DNA of 64,000 nucleotides from Cystobacter fuscus (GTDB taxonomy: Bacteria > Myxococcota > Myxococcia > Myxococcales > Myxococcaceae), in contig NZ_CP022098.1 of the NCBI RefSeq assembly GCF_002305875.1, positions 8,370,001 through 8,434,000 on the forward strand, read 5' to 3'. The notes beneath the pieces are model-generated. The model searched no databases. It worked only from the letters and a program-made list of their open reading frames with translations, and was not told the DNA's origin. This document shows, piece after piece, positions 2,716-12,993 of the stretch. A program made the position numbers and the translations under genes. Numbering within the stretch: position 1 is the first letter of the stretch; each line of letters begins with the position of its first letter.

Positions 2716-3069
2716 GGGGGGAAGCTAGGAACGGGGCGGATCCCCGTCGAAATCGTCCCCAGGTCTGCTTGGAGGGCATGCAGGCGAGAGTCCAAGTCAT
2801 TGAAATCCTTGAGCTTTCATTTTTCGTCCGGGGTGCTTTCCGTTTTTCGGGGCCACGGTGTCACTTCCAGCGAACGAGCCGCGCGCACCCGAGGGCCGGG
2901 CAGACTTCGAGGGGAAACGCTCGTGACGAGAACCCACCCATGGCCGTGGCCGGAGACACCTCCGACCAAGGGCCCAGCAGCCACTCCCGCGGGGCACCTG
3001 GTCGCTCACGGTGAAGAGGATGGGGCGGGTAGGCTCGGACCTCCCCCCCGAGGCGAGACGAGGCAGTTC
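2716..3069. other. Intergenic region, divergent promoters expected
   Basis: This 354-base stretch separates two divergently transcribed operons. A short AT-richer patch at about 2800-2850 contains two similar T-run/CGGGG segments. I see no convincing -35/-10 pair, RNA gene or coding frame on either strand; open frames crossing it lack ribosome sites and family resemblance. Confidence 0.4.
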
Positions 3070-3609
3070 TTGGCAGTGACGACCCCAGCGGACCTGAAGG
3101 TCATCGACGGAGGCCAGCAGGACCGGCATGCCTTCCTGCATGAGCTGTACAAGACCTACGGTGGCAGCGTGTACGGGCGCTGCCGCTTTCTCTTGAAGGA
3201 CGCCACGAAGGCGGAGGACGCGGCGCAGGAGGTCTTCGTGCGCGTCCTGCGGCAATCGGAGTCGTTGCGCAGGGCGAACTCGCCCCTGGCGTGGTTGATG
3301 AAGGTCGCCACCCACCACTGCCTCAACCAACTGCGCGCGGAGCAGGCGCCGTGGCGTCGCTCGTTCGAGCGGGACGAGCGGGCACGTCCCGAGGGGGACG
3401 GAGGCGAGCGGCCCCTGGAGACGCGCAACCTGGTGCGCTCGCTCCTGTCCCGGGTGGACCCCGAGACCCAGGCGGCGGTGGTGCACTACTGGGTGGATGG
3501 AATGACGCTGGAAGAGGTGGCGGCGCTGTTGGGCCGCTCGGTGCCCACGGTGCGCAAGCGGCTGGAGGGCTTCGCGACCCTGACGAACGAGGAGCTGAAG
3601 GTGCCATGA
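3070..3609 (+). CDS. ECF-like sigma-70 family RNA polymerase sigma factor
   Basis: A 179-residue sigma factor with region 2 at residues 18-62 (H-E-L-Y-K-x-Y-G ... A-E-D-A-A-Q-E-V-F-V-R-V-L) and a region 4 helix-turn-helix at residues 135-172 (M-T-L-E-E-V-A-A-L-L-G ... V-R-K-R-L). The start is taken as TTG 3070, seven bases after a GAGG; GTG 3076 is an alternative. A long open frame continues upstream to 1963 but it antisenses the nucleotidyltransferase gene and has no family resemblance, so it is excluded. The stop codon overlaps the start of the anti-sigma gene (ATGA), the classic layout of a sigma/anti-sigma pair, so this factor probably controls its own operon. Confidence 0.85.
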   Translation: MAVTTPADLKVIDGGQQDRHAFLHELYKTYGGSVYGRCRFLLKDATKAEDAAQEVFVRVLRQSESLRRANSPLAWLMKVATHHCLNQLRAEQAPWRRSFERDERARPEGDGGERPLETRNLVRSLLSRVDPETQAAVVHYWVDGMTLEEVAALLGRSVPTVRKRLEGFATLTNEELKVP

Positions 3610-4355
3610 GCGCGCATCTGACGGAGTGGACGCTGCGGCGGCTGCGCGCCGGGGAGCTGCCCGGCGCGGAGGAGCAACAGGCCCGGAGCCATGTCGCCAC
3701 CTGCGCGGAGTGCCAGCGGGTGCTCCACGGCCTCGAGGAGGAACAGGCGCGCTTCGAGGCCCAGGTGCCCTTCGAGCGCTTCGCGGCCGGGGTCGCCCTG
3801 AAGGAGACGGAGAAGCCCGCCTCGCGGCCGCGCGTCAACGGCCTGGTGGTGGCGGTAGCGGCCCTGGTGCTGCTCACGGTGACGGTGCGTCCCTTCCTCG
3901 AGCCCGAGTCCGTCAACCGGCTCAAGGGCGATGGTGCCTCGGCGACCCTGCGCATCGGTGGCGAGGGCCCCCAGCGCGCCGTGCTCCCGGGGGACACGGA
4001 GACGGTGCTGCCGCACGAGCGGGTGCGGATCGGCTACACGGCGGGCCCCTACCCGTTCATCCTCGCCCTCTCGCTGGACGACACCGGGGAGGTCTCCCCG
4101 CTGTATGCCACCGAGGATCAGCGCAGCCTGCGCGTGGAGGCGGGAGGCGGACGGCACTGGCTGCCCGACAGCGTGCGCTTCACGGGGACGGGGAACGAGC
4201 GGGTGATGGTGCTGCTGTCCAACGAGCCCCTGGAGCTGGGCGCGGTGACGGCGCGAGCGCTTCGCGCCTGGGAGGAGGCGGGCAACCAGGTCTCGGCGAT
4301 GCGGCCCCTGGAGCTGGATGGGGAGGAAATCGACTGGGTGCTGCACAAGCCATGA
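3606..4355 (+). CDS. Zinc-binding anti-sigma factor with DUF4384-like periplasmic part
   Basis: A 249-residue membrane protein. The N-terminus has the ZAS-type metal site H29-x3-C33-x2-C36, which in the family binds zinc and holds the cognate sigma factor. A transmembrane segment follows at about residues 77-97. The rest, expected in the periplasm, resembles DUF4384: an I-G-Y strand, then 'P-F-I-L-A-L-S-L-D-D-T-G-E-V-S-P-L-Y'. The gene overlaps the sigma gene by 4 bases upstream and the caspase gene by 4 bases downstream, so the three are translated as a unit. I infer that it keeps the sigma factor inactive until an envelope signal arrives; the signal is unknown. Confidence 0.75.
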   Translation: MSAHLTEWTLRRLRAGELPGAEEQQARSHVATCAECQRVLHGLEEEQARFEAQVPFERFAAGVALKETEKPASRPRVNGLVVAVAALVLLTVTVRPFLEPESVNRLKGDGASATLRIGGEGPQRAVLPGDTETVLPHERVRIGYTAGPYPFILALSLDDTGEVSPLYATEDQRSLRVEAGGGRHWLPDSVRFTGTGNERVMVLLSNEPLELGAVTARALRAWEEAGNQVSAMRPLELDGEEIDWVLHKP

Positions 4356-5953
4356 GGCGTCTGGGCCTGTCCGCCTGGGGAGTGCTCCTGGGTCTGCTCC
4401 TGGCGAGCGCCGCGGGCGCCGTCCCCACGCGCCGCTTCGCGCTGGCGGCGGGCAATGACGAGGGGGGCGCGGGCACCCGGCCACTGCGCTTCGCGCGGCA
4501 GGATGCGCGGACGATGCTGGGCCTGCTGTCGCGGCTGGGCGGGGTGGCGCCCGGAGATTCGCGGCTGCTGCTGGACGAGGAGCCCGAGGACTTCCTGCGG
4601 GCGCTCGCCGAGGTGGAGGCCCAGGCACGGGTGGCGCGGGCCCGGGGCGAGCGCACCGAGCTCATCCTCTACTATTCGGGTCACGCGAAGGACGGCGCGC
4701 TGCGCATGGGAGAGGGGGTGCTGGAGCTGGAGGCGCTCAAGCGTCGGCTGGAGGCCTCGCCCGTGGACATCCGCATCGCCATCCTGGATGCGTGCCGCTC
4801 GGGGTCGCTCACCCGCACGAAGGGCGCCCGGCGCGCGCCCGCCTTCGCCATCGACACGGGCCTGGCCCAGACCGCCCGGGGGCTCGTCCTGCTCACCTCC
4901 AGCTCGGCGGACGAGGACTCCCAGGAGTCGGATCTGCTGGGGGGCAGCTACTTCACCCACCACCTCTTCAGCGGCCTGCTGGGGGACGCGGATCGCTCGG
5001 GGGACGGGCAGGTGACGCTCTTCGAGGCCTACTCCCATGCCTATGCGCGCACGGTGGCGGACACCGCCGACAGCGGCGCCGGAGCGCAGCACCCCTCCTT
5101 CAGCTATGACCTGTCGGGCCAGGGGGACCTGGTGCTGACGGACTTGCGTGGACACGACGAGGGCGTGCTGTTGCCGGGTGCCGCGCCCGCGGGCGCCTAT
5201 TACTTCGTGAGCCCCATGGGCCTGGTGGTCGCCGAGGTGGACAAGGCGGCGGACACCGAGCGCAGGCTCGCCCTGGCGCCGGGCCGCTACACGGTGAAGC
5301 GCAGACTGGCGGACCGGCTGCGCATCGGCGAGGCGGAGGTGCGTCGCGGGAGCACCACGGTGCTCGACGAGTCGAGCCTGCGCGACGCGCCCTTCTCGGA
5401 TGATCCGGTGAAGGGAGCGCCGTACCAGACGCGCACGCGGCACGCCTATTGGACGCTGGGGCTCAGCGGCGGCTACCACTCCTTCTTCGACACGCCCACG
5501 CGCGACAACCTCTTCCTCTCCACTCCGATGCTGGGGCTGGAGGCGAGCCTGCACCACTACTTCCACGAGGACTGGCGCTGGGACGTCGATCTGTCCTTCG
5601 GCTCGAGGCAGGCCACGCTGGCGCTGCCCACGCTGTCGGGGCCGCTCTACCGCTATTCGCTGCTCAACGTGGGCACGTCGTTCGTGCGCGAGTGGCCCCT
5701 GGGCCGCGCGAGTCCCTTCCTCGGCGCGCGTCTGGCCTACTCGGTCATGATTCGCGACTTCACGGACACGAGCCTGCCGACCCAGTTCTACGGGGTGGTC
5801 ACCCCCGGGTTGATGGCGGGCGTGCGCTGGCCGCTGACCCACCACATCGAACTCACCGGACGTGCCCGCGTCCATTACCTCCTCTACAACGTCGACGAGC
5901 CACGCTCCCTGGGCTACTGGGAACTCGGGGCACTCGTCACGTTCCGGCTGTGA
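4352..5953 (+). CDS. Caspase-like protease with C-terminal outer-membrane barrel-like domain
   Basis: A 533-residue exported protein. Residues 1-23 form a signal peptide (ending A-G-A). A caspase/metacaspase fold (Peptidase C14) follows, with the catalytic pair visible as Y-S-G-H111 and I-L-D-A-C148-R-S-G. An EF-hand-like loop at D214-E225 (D-x-S-x-D-G-x-V-x-x-x-E) may bind calcium. A PEGA-like stretch lies at about 275-345. From about residue 363 the protein alternates short amphipathic strands rich in Tyr, Phe and Gly and ends in V-T-F-R-L, as expected of an outer-membrane beta barrel. The barrel reading is inference. It starts four bases inside the anti-sigma gene. A caspase domain exported and tethered to the outer membrane is unusual; the substrate is unknown. 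Confidence 0.8.
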   Translation: MRRLGLSAWGVLLGLLLASAAGAVPTRRFALAAGNDEGGAGTRPLRFARQDARTMLGLLSRLGGVAPGDSRLLLDEEPEDFLRALAEVEAQARVARARGERTELILYYSGHAKDGALRMGEGVLELEALKRRLEASPVDIRIAILDACRSGSLTRTKGARRAPAFAIDTGLAQTARGLVLLTSSSADEDSQESDLLGGSYFTHHLFSGLLGDADRSGDGQVTLFEAYSHAYARTVADTADSGAGAQHPSFSYDLSGQGDLVLTDLRGHDEGVLLPGAAPAGAYYFVSPMGLVVAEVDKAADTERRLALAPGRYTVKRRLADRLRIGEAEVRRGSTTVLDESSLRDAPFSDDPVKGAPYQTRTRHAYWTLGLSGGYHSFFDTPTRDNLFLSTPMLGLEASLHHYFHEDWRWDVDLSFGSRQATLALPTLSGPLYRYSLLNVGTSFVREWPLGRASPFLGARLAYSVMIRDFTDTSLPTQFYGVVTPGLMAGVRWPLTHHIELTGRARVHYLLYNVDEPRSLGYWELGALVTFRL

Positions 5954-5967
5954 ATCGGGAGCGTGTC

Positions 5968-6942
5968 ATGCGAACCCTCTGGCTCTTGCTGTTGGGCTGT
6001 GCCACCAGCGCCTGTGTGGGCAACTTCTCCAACGACGACCTCGAGTTCCTCAACGCCCTGCCCGCGCGCGAGGATCTGATGGCCCGGCTGCCCGGAAGCG
6101 AGGCGCGCACCGGCGCGAGCGTCACGGGATGGCGCGTGGCCCCGCTCGCCCTGGCAGAGCCCTCCCCGTTCTATCGCAACACCCACGACGCCTCGGACAT
6201 CTTCAACGCGGGGCTGGATGCACTGCTGTCGCGCCTGGAGCTGATCCAGGCCGAGCCCCCGACGACGCGCGCCCTGGGCAAACGGACCTGGGGGCCCATG
6301 ACGCTCGACGTGTCCGGAACCCACGAGGTGCGTCTCCTGATGACCCGGACGGGCCGCGTCTTCGACTATCGGCTCGAGGTGCGGCGCACCGGCTCGGGCG
6401 ATGCGGGCTGGTGGACCTTCCTGGAGGGCATCTTCCAGGCGGACGGCGGCATGCGCCGGGGGGCGGGAGCGGTGCACCTTCAGCTCGGGGCGGCGGTCGC
6501 CAACGGCTTCGATCTGGGGTGGCTCTCGGAACAGGGGCAGGAGTGGCTCTCGACCCAGGAGCGGTTGGACATCGCCTATCAGACGCGCACGCTGCCCTTG
6601 CGCGTGGAGATGAACTTCGTCTCGGCCCAGGGGGGGCGGGAGTTCCGGTACACCTACCGCCAGCTGCCCGACGGACTCGGGGAGATGAGGTTCTTCCTCC
6701 GGGCGGACCTCCTGCCGGGCGAGCGGCGCGAGGACCTGTCCATCCTCAGCCGGTGGACGCGGGACGGCGCCGGGGTGGCCCGAGCGGAGGTGACGGGAGG
6801 GGACGTGACCGAGGGGCTCGAGGAGACCCAGGTGGAGTGCTGGGACACGGGCTTCCAGCTCACCTACCGCCAACGCAGTTGGAACGCGACCCCGGAAGGC
6901 GATGCCGGGTCCTGTCCGGACGTCTCCGCGCTGGGGCCCTGA
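5968..6942 (+). CDS. Putative lipoprotein of the caspase operon
   Basis: A 324-residue exported protein of unknown family. The N-terminus is a signal sequence with two possible lipobox cysteines (L-L-G-C at 11 and T-S-A-C at 16). No transmembrane segment follows. The ATG at 5968 is preceded by GGGAG six bases away; a GTG at 5950 overlapping the caspase stop is the alternative. It sits 14 bases after the caspase gene and is surely in the same operon, so it may be a partner or substrate of the exported caspase. Residues 100-250 look rich in beta strands. I cannot assign a function. Confidence 0.7.
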   Translation: MRTLWLLLLGCATSACVGNFSNDDLEFLNALPAREDLMARLPGSEARTGASVTGWRVAPLALAEPSPFYRNTHDASDIFNAGLDALLSRLELIQAEPPTTRALGKRTWGPMTLDVSGTHEVRLLMTRTGRVFDYRLEVRRTGSGDAGWWTFLEGIFQADGGMRRGAGAVHLQLGAAVANGFDLGWLSEQGQEWLSTQERLDIAYQTRTLPLRVEMNFVSAQGGREFRYTYRQLPDGLGEMRFFLRADLLPGERREDLSILSRWTRDGAGVARAEVTGGDVTEGLEETQVECWDTGFQLTYRQRSWNATPEGDAGSCPDVSALGP

Positions 6943-10925: not shown

Positions 10926-11004
10926 TCGCCCGGGCCCCAAGCCCTTCATCCACCCCGTGGGCGTGCCGAATCCCCGGCTCGCCCCCCTTTCGAGGAGACC
11001 GACC

Positions 11005-11295
11005 ATGAAGATTCGTCCCCTGCAGGATCGTCTGATCATCAAGCGCGTGGCCGAGGAGAACAAGACCAAGGGCGGTCTGTTCATCCCCGACACCGCCAAG
11101 GAGAAGCCGCTCGAGGGCAAGGTGATCGCCGTCGGCAATGGCAAGGTGCTGGAGGATGGCAAGGTGCGCGCCATGGACATCAAGGCCGGCGACACCATCC
11201 TGTTCAGCAAGTACGCGGGCACCGAGATCAAGCTCGACGGTGAGGAGCACCTCATCCTCCGTGAGGAGGATGTGCTCGGCGTGATCGAGAAGTAA
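11005..11295 (+). CDS. groES: Co-chaperonin GroES
   Basis: A 96-residue GroES. It starts [10 protein letters not shown] and contains the mobile-loop region ([15 protein letters not shown] at residues 17-31) that contacts GroEL, and ends with [10 protein letters not shown]. GroES caps the GroEL cavity during ATP-driven folding. The ATG at 11005 follows CGAGGAGA, seven bases away. It is the first gene of the groESL operon, 42 bases before groEL, under the CIRCE/sigma-70 control region. Confidence 0.97.

Positions 11296-12993
<1,698 letters not shown>

Follow-up and report, generated by a model that had tools for sequence, protein, structure and literature searches.

A window of 64,000 nucleotides from Cystobacter fuscus (NZ_CP022098.1, positions 8,370,001 to 8,434,000 of the forward strand; "the window" is this whole stretch) contains an operon which encodes an extracytoplasmic function (ECF) sigma factor, a zinc anti-sigma factor, an exported caspase and a lipoprotein. 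The model which we consider probable is that the caspase acts upstream of the sigma factor, as the site-1 protease of its anti-sigma factor in a switch across the envelope. The four genes are:

3076..3609, + strand: ECF sigma factor, 177 amino acids with an assumed GTG start (Sigma70_r2 E 1.5e-14, Sigma70_r4_2 E 2.5e-8)
3606..4355, + strand: zinc anti-sigma factor with one membrane helix and a DUF4384-like periplasmic domain, 249 amino acids (zf-HC2 E 0.0015)
4352..5953, + strand: exported caspase with a C-terminal, apparently outer-membrane, barrel, 533 amino acids (Peptidase_C14 E 6.8e-7)
5968..6942, + strand: downstream lipoprotein, 324 amino acids, lipidated at Cys16, with an all-beta fold and one long helix

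The model builds on features which are directly visible in the sequence: the architecture, the active site, the acidic S1 residues, two R-x-K-G sites, the promoter and the conserved gene order. It proposes that the anti-sigma factor would hold the ECF sigma factor at the inner membrane, and that the caspase would be exported, its barrel holding it in the outer membrane and its protease domain lying in the periplasm. A trigger, for which the barrel, the EF-hand-like loop and the lipoproteins are candidates, would activate the caspase, perhaps after self-processing at R155-T-K157/G158. The active caspase would cut the anti-sigma factor after K107 (R-x-K/G) near the inner membrane, and general intramembrane and cytoplasmic proteases would then complete the breakdown. 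The freed sigma factor would transcribe mainly its own operon and give more caspase, lipoprotein and sigma factor, so that the response would be self-amplifying. Alternatively, processing or failed assembly of the barrel might free the protease. The cleavage, the order of the steps, the localisation and the signal are what we infer from these features.

The central piece of evidence is a short motif in the anti-sigma factor:

3918..3929, + strand: R105-L-K107-G108, proposed site-1 cleavage site (K107/G108), just past the membrane helix

Among 49 anti-sigma orthologs the invariant residues are C33, C36, two alanines of the helix and K107, and no others; H29, R105 and G108 are conserved in at least 90%, and the context after the helix is N-R-x-K-G. 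In the domain which follows the site, no column reaches 90% conservation in 36 sequences. In the caspase loci of eight genomes from which an anti-sigma factor could be extracted, the first KG (33) or RG (2) is found 8-24 residues past the helix in 35 of 42.

One rule was used for all sets of loci: [KR]G in residues 4-36 past the helix, in the gene following the sigma gene. The discovery set, in which the motif was first noticed, had 47 loci, 41 of them with a sigma factor; L145 was lost and 42 rows were obtained. The motif is present in 40 of these rows, and both misses belong to second sigma genes, so that all caspase partners carry it (40/40). A second set of 40 loci was hand-picked from the listed matches, from 17 genomes which belong to other families and are spread over the phylum; 34 had a sigma factor, L214 was lost, and 32 of the 33 rows have [KR]G, at positions 7-31 past the helix. 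As caspase-free controls 40 ECF loci of two genomes were fetched, of which 33 had a sigma factor; 10 were excluded for having several helices or a short tail, 9 had no helix-bearing candidate, and 14 were usable, although some of these show no clear helix or two, so that not all need be anti-sigma factors. The controls have [KR]G in 2/14, both RG and none KG (Fisher p 2e-8 against the second set, a value not phylogenetically corrected for rows which share ancestry). KG is the commonest of the 400 dipeptides in that stretch in both caspase sets. A chance dipeptide was rejected as an explanation: shuffling gave means of 7.6/42 and 6.6/33 (maxima 15 and 14), compared to KG in 34 and 27 rows.

Two other controls were set aside. 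The first, 19 zf-HC2 proteins of the genome itself, was replaced because many of them resemble kinases and not anti-sigma factors; in the 45 residues past the chosen helix L171, L177 and L179 show RG near the ends of the stretch. The other consisted of ten anti-sigma-type domains away from the listed caspases, of which six do have a caspase, all with [KR]G. L185 and L186, which have no sigma factor, have no [KR]G site.

The motif could instead be structural: it would form the edge of the periplasmic domain's first strand and would not be cut. It does lie directly before that strand, and when 30 loci were drawn by the Pfam domain DUF4384 alone, all of those linked to a sigma factor (21/21) had KG at 23-30 residues ahead of the Pfam start (L291 and L303 have an additional KG). 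The unlinked loci, however, have KG in 0/9 and [KR]G in 2/9 at 20-45 residues before the domain (1/9 at 18-40), and even within 60 residues KG in 1/9 and [KR]G in 5/9, compared to 21/21 of the linked ones. By these counts KG belongs to the sigma linkage and not to the DUF4384 domain itself. Moreover the caspase tree implies five or more interchanges of K and R at the site, the domain which follows is otherwise variable, and the same motif occurs in an unrelated loop of the caspase. A structural role without proteolysis is thus, in our judgement, highly unlikely. It should be noted that the label DUF4384-like, given in an earlier sequence-only reading of this DNA, holds for the family more than for the protein in the window: the latter is unmatched at E 0.1, 31/49 orthologs are matched (best 8.7e-6), and the Pfam DUF4384 model gives no match in the C. 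fuscus genome at 0.01.

The loop of the caspase which carries the motif follows the catalytic cysteine:

4814..4825, + strand: R155-T-K157-G158, proposed self-processing or pseudosubstrate site in a flexible loop after the catalytic Cys

R155, K157 and G158 are invariant in 51 caspase orthologs, and residues 150-174 have a predicted local distance difference test score (pLDDT) below 50 in the AlphaFold2 (AF2) model. Counted from the first letter of D-x-C, the caspase has [KR]G 9-13 residues on in 62 of 73 caspase/anti-sigma pairs (shuffle mean 7.2, maximum 17); in 5 it comes a little later, and in 6 it is absent. The commonest letters are T-R-x-K-G-G in the caspase and x-R-x-K-G-G in the anti-sigma factor. 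Five of the six caspases without the loop motif belong to a second barrel subfamily with A-x-C instead of D-x-C, and this subfamily has KG in the N-terminal linker past the signal core in 9/9, compared to 1/53 and 0/11 in the other groups, often beside a likely lipidated Cys. Counting both places, 72/73 caspases have the motif at the active-site loop or in the N-terminal linker, which is consistent with processing or release of the protease at its own R-x-K-G. The members of the A-x-C caspase-barrel subfamily are L127-L130, L150, L217, L218, L224 and L228, mostly with a lipoprotein-like N-terminus.

Two apparent couplings between the sites of protease and anti-sigma factor were discarded. The K/R identities of the two sites seem to switch together (54 KK, 7 RR, 3 RK, 2 KR; Fisher p 5e-6), and this is not used as evidence because the tree shows just one change at the caspase site. 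A pairing at P3 (p 1.5e-4) gave a mean of 2 same-way and 0.1 opposite changes out of 7 independent pairs, which is too few. A divergent arrangement was also seen, in which a sigma/anti-sigma pair faces a caspase on the opposite strand (L188, L189 and L190, the last in the C. fuscus genome itself at ~885-892 kb); the anti-sigma factor has R-G there (R-K-G in L189) and the caspase loop S-R-G.

Could the protease cut at such a site? The caspase domain has the residues expected for it:

4421..5146, + strand: caspase domain (residues 24-265), with H111 and C148 and the predicted S1 acids D51, D146 and E192

All five residues are invariant in the 51/51 aligned orthologs, each of which matches Peptidase_C14 at E 0.1, and C148, which the sequence-only reading had singled out, is the catalytic cysteine. 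In a wider set of caspases H111, C148, D51 and E192 are found in 48/48 and D146 in 43/48. The full-length AF2 model (pLDDT 82, predicted template modelling score (pTM) 0.61) consists of the caspase domain, followed by a beta linker and then by eight strands at the C-terminus, and its caspase part resembles caspases and MALT1 with Z ~20. The family profile matches metacaspase-1, and D51 and D146 align with the metacaspase equivalents. The available text of PMC4357240 holds Asp365, Asp462 and Glu500 responsible for the P1 (Arg) specificity of MALT1, and names Asp95 and Asp211 among the pocket residues of TbMCA2; E192 is likened to Glu500 by position and not by structural alignment. A caspase with an acidic S1 pocket and specificity for Lys or Arg is therefore predicted. 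A hydropathic export signal is found in 81/87 caspases, a few of these 87 not being linked to a sigma factor. Taken with the intact catalytic dyad, it supports an exported and catalytically complete enzyme.

The recurrence of the operon was followed in 76 named loci, which result from a pattern scan across the genome collection. The sigma gene lies upstream of the caspase gene in 69/76, with an anti-sigma gene present each time, and in the 7/76 without a sigma gene the caspase frame begins at most ~300 bases from a contig end. In-frame start/stop overlaps (xTGA) join sigma and anti-sigma genes in 60/76 loci and anti-sigma and caspase genes in 61/76. The same order is found in Archangium, Myxococcus, Corallococcus, Hyalangium, Anaeromyxobacter and others, so that it is not due to chance. 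The search placed Archangium species nearest among the named relatives, at 79% protein identity. The C. fuscus genome, 12.35 Mb on one contig, holds a second copy of the operon at 5.04 Mb (L115). The same genome has four further Peptidase_C14 proteins at 2.25, 4.17, 4.18 and 6.58 Mb (L119-L121; open frames of 697-1844 amino acids), which do not match the profile of the sigma-linked caspases and have no such sigma factor in the stretch. L043, in a record titled Comamonas sp. KCTC 72670, carries the operon at 69% identity, and the title of this record is probably wrong.

These data bear on the role which the sequence-only reading proposed, namely an envelope-stress or self/non-self death system. 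That reading was right that the caspase sits in an operon with its own sigma/anti-sigma pair and in a gene order which is conserved and not scattered among relatives, and an outer-membrane caspase encoded in an operon which responds to a signal would suit such a system. Defence genes usually spread patchily. Caspase matches are found in 132/145 genomes of the order (paralogs counted), and the order of the genes is conserved in the named relatives. A PADLOC search of the operon genes gave nothing meaningful (one match at 0.0063, mads_1, over the helix-turn-helix of the sigma factor), and the activation logic points to signalling. A death or self/non-self function finds no support here and is very improbable; a role in envelope sensing is possible.

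The operon also has a conserved promoter:

2837..2862, + strand: conserved bipartite promoter TTTC-N17-GTGTC, upstream of the first operon gene in relatives

The consensus before the first operon gene is TTTCnGTTTT...GCnGTGTCcat. TTTC-N17-GTGT is present in 25/33 de-duplicated upstream sequences (best shuffled bipartite word 5) and GTGTC in 33/33 (5-mer shuffle maximum 25). The window has one match, with 0.24 expected, 213 bases before the GTG of the sigma gene, where relatives have an upstream lipoprotein gene. In four whole genomes the 13-base form has three exact matches, each at the operon (G000, G043 and G101); with one mismatch allowed the second operon copy of the C. fuscus genome is also found, and the other one-mismatch sites in the four genomes are 7, compared to 5 for a reversed-pattern control. 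With this pattern the four genomes show no wider regulon; weaker sites may be missed. The promoter thus looks near-private to the operon, which implies positive feedback, and the sigma factor using it would be that of the operon itself.

A near-private promoter also allows the caspase to be output only. Some other protease would then free the sigma factor, the caspase at the outer membrane would act on proteins which are foreign or belong to the envelope, or would take part in developmental lysis, and [K/R]-G would serve another, trypsin-like protease. Since the promoter seems to serve chiefly this operon, the operon's products must do something, and myxobacteria have developmental cell death, in which metacaspases might participate according to the available part of PMC3501461. 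Against this, [K/R]-G goes with loci which hold a sigma factor and a caspase and does not accompany the other ECF-linked proteins in two of these genomes, the same motif is present inside the caspase, and the operon has no known death gene. We find the output-only alternative unlikely.

The model with the caspase as site-1 protease places this enzyme at the outer membrane, and the following parts of the protein are relevant here:

4991..5026, + strand: EF-hand-like loop (residues 214-225), with D214, D218 and E225 invariant in 51 orthologs
5147..5401, + strand: beta-rich linker domain (residues ~266-350), from AF2 strands
5447..5950, + strand: predicted eight-stranded outer-membrane beta-barrel (residues 366-533), from AF2 strands 366-532

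The strands were read from the full-length model and have pLDDT 75-97 in blocks of ten; there are eight of them and no soluble C-terminal domain, in agreement with the barrel which had been suspected from the sequence. Opacity porin matches 11/51 and OMP_b-brl 8/51 orthologs at E 0.1 (best 1.6e-5 and 1.3e-6), the caspase of the window itself matches neither at E 0.1, and the family profile matches, in its C-terminal part, the outer membrane protein NspA at E 1.7e-4. The domain appears to be a barrel of the outer-membrane type and seems to anchor the caspase in the outer membrane. Many C-termini of the wider caspase set look barrel-like when the last residues are read, though among 83 related C-terminal parts Pfam OMP_b-brl is found in just 5/83, and a PEGA domain in 5/83. 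The EF-hand-like loop fits the pattern, as had been noted, and a profile built from 30 relatives hits PDB entries of calcium-binding EF-hand proteins at this place (best E 1.9e-6). The clade whose caspase loops carry R-G has a C-terminal hydrophobic helix in place of the barrel in 7/11 (L187, L219-L223 and L225), which suggests anchoring in the inner membrane, so that the protease would lie beside its substrate.

A wider form of the model covers the phylum. Caspases of this class would be site-1 proteases of ECF anti-sigma factors, with one R-x-K/G code for the substrate and for the site at which the protease itself is processed or released. The versions with a barrel would be parked at the outer membrane; failed assembly of barrel or lipoprotein, or a signal at the outer membrane, would leave the protease free, or set it free, near the inner membrane. 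The operon would monitor outer-membrane biogenesis as a sentinel and would have positive feedback. This extension is tentative, and we think it rather less probable than not.

Several observations weigh against the caspase as site-1 protease. A caspase tethered to the outer membrane must reach a site which is mostly 7-24 residues from the inner membrane, and its linker of ~100 residues looks short for that; such a reach is not impossible, since in cell-surface signalling a domain of an outer-membrane receptor contacts an inner-membrane anti-sigma factor (PMC11637429, available text). The site is not confined to caspase loci: RG is carried by the two controls mentioned, and zf-HC2 proteins without a caspase have RG (L165 and L180) or KG (L174) there. 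L183 and L184 have sigma factor and site with no caspase within ~4 kb. Conversely L225 has no site, in L223 it is 31 residues out, the five caspases of the 48 which deviate at D146 lack one predicted S1 acid, and the operon of G048 has no promoter pattern even with one mismatch. The near-fixed distance of 23-30 residues between KG and DUF4384 makes a structural role in the first strand conceivable, the K/R pairing rests on a single caspase change, and the shared ancestry of the rows, for which the p-values are uncorrected, applies to all sets. As to L183, it is an orphan sigma/anti-sigma pair, and the search reports a TAG in its open frame.

The remaining properties of the operon concern the gene calls and the lipoproteins. 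The gene set of the sequence-only reading is confirmed, signal peptides and membrane helices being judged by simple hydropathy. The sigma factor matches Pfam regions 2 and 4, the region 3 family being absent from the match list. The anti-sigma factor has the HxxxCxxC zinc motif (H29/C33/C36) and one hydrophobic helix, with zf-HC2 slightly below the Pfam cut-off. The Peptidase_C14 match of the caspase exceeds its cut-off, and NCBIfam gives a sub-threshold match to the EACC1-associated caspase model. Of the 4-base overlaps reported between the genes, those of sigma and anti-sigma (3606-3609) and of anti-sigma and caspase (4352-4355) are exact ATGA overlaps; the third, GTGA, holds only if the lipoprotein starts at GTG 5950, and a start at ATG 5968 leaves a 14-bp gap. 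ATG 5968 gives a clean lipoprotein signal, with C16 invariant in 47/47 sequences.

The downstream lipoprotein is present in 66/76 loci. Seven of the 10 loci without it are at a contig edge, in L087 the match lies in the open frame of the caspase itself, and the divergent L112 and L113 lack it. It matches no Pfam, NCBIfam or PADLOC family at E 1. Its AF2 model (pLDDT 89.6, pTM 0.84) has no match in the PDB at E <= 0.001 (best Foldseek E 0.035), and the best VIA-align Z of 9.5 is close to the level of unrelated matches. A fifth gene encodes a lipoprotein of the same family (alignment A4) and lies directly upstream of the sigma gene in 59/76 loci. It is missing at the operon of the window, where there is no such frame, at L115 and at two close congeners; the C. 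fuscus genome has one of this type unlinked at 10,403,748-10,404,728 (L272:4743-5834). In G073 and G074 the best copy of the upstream lipoprotein is on a different contig from the orthologous operon. Elsewhere in the window, 10957-12993 is by eye an ordinary GroES/GroEL pair.

How does the proposed switch compare to known systems? DegS, a serine protease, sits in the inner membrane, the Csx29/Csx30 system is cytoplasmic, and Opa and NspA are eight-stranded outer-membrane barrels. Operons of the same class, with a sigma gene beside a metacaspase gene, are described by Asplund-Samuelsson (2012; PMC3501461), who in the available text reports sigma-70/metacaspase operons in Myxococcus xanthus (four of its five metacaspases), Anaeromyxobacter, Haliangium, Sorangium, Ralstonia and Fibrobacter. 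The words anti-sigma, barrel and periplasm do not occur in the main text, and the available part offers no activation mechanism or cleavage motif. For the ECF54 sigma factors proteolytic control was proposed from gene context, by neighbouring proteases some of which are of the caspase-type CHAT family (PMC8999054, available text); those sigma factors have no anti-sigma factor, whereas here one is present and bears a putative cut site. The switch resembles the DegS-type pathway as outlined in the available part of PMC10028731, in which a first periplasmic cut in a membrane anti-sigma factor frees an ECF sigma factor; in the present case the first cut would be made by an enzyme with the caspase fold, whose gene belongs to the operon and which would be tied to the outer membrane. 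With FoxA/FoxR/FoxI (PMC11637429) it shares an outer-membrane barrel protein, an inner-membrane anti-sigma factor and an ECF sigma factor, and the available text describes the site-1 protease of that system as still unknown. In the C. fuscus operon, in contrast, the barrel protein itself bears the protease; its barrel has 8 strands, and no operon gene has a Pfam match to a TonB-dependent receptor with a signalling domain, as in the FecA/FoxA type. The type III-E CRISPR system Csx29/Csx30/CASP-sigma also uses a CHAT protease to cut a sigma inhibitor (PMC10028731, as far as available), but it is RNA-activated and has another substrate, whereas here the caspase is exported and the anti-sigma factor membrane-bound. 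With MALT1 paracaspase and the metacaspases the enzyme shares the caspase fold (Z ~20) and the acidic S1 residues, and it differs by being exported and fused to an outer-membrane barrel. The Opa and NspA barrels match the C-terminal domain in profile and strand count, and here the barrel is fused behind a protease. No description of anti-sigma cleavage by an exported caspase was found in the literature searched, most subscription papers lying outside the search. The proposed cut of the anti-sigma factor by the caspase would on this basis be a new form of regulated anti-sigma proteolysis.

If the model is true, a large and widespread caspase group of the Myxococcota would gain a substrate (the neighbouring anti-sigma factor), a cut site (R-x-K/G) and an output (its own operon). 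To our knowledge, most discussion of caspases in bacteria treats them as death enzymes, and for most of them we know of no substrate; the role of a bacterial caspase would become directly testable by one point mutant. The switch would be a new route for a signal at the outer membrane to reach transcription, and it would hint at the type of enzyme to look for in sigma/anti-sigma pathways which still miss their site-1 protease.

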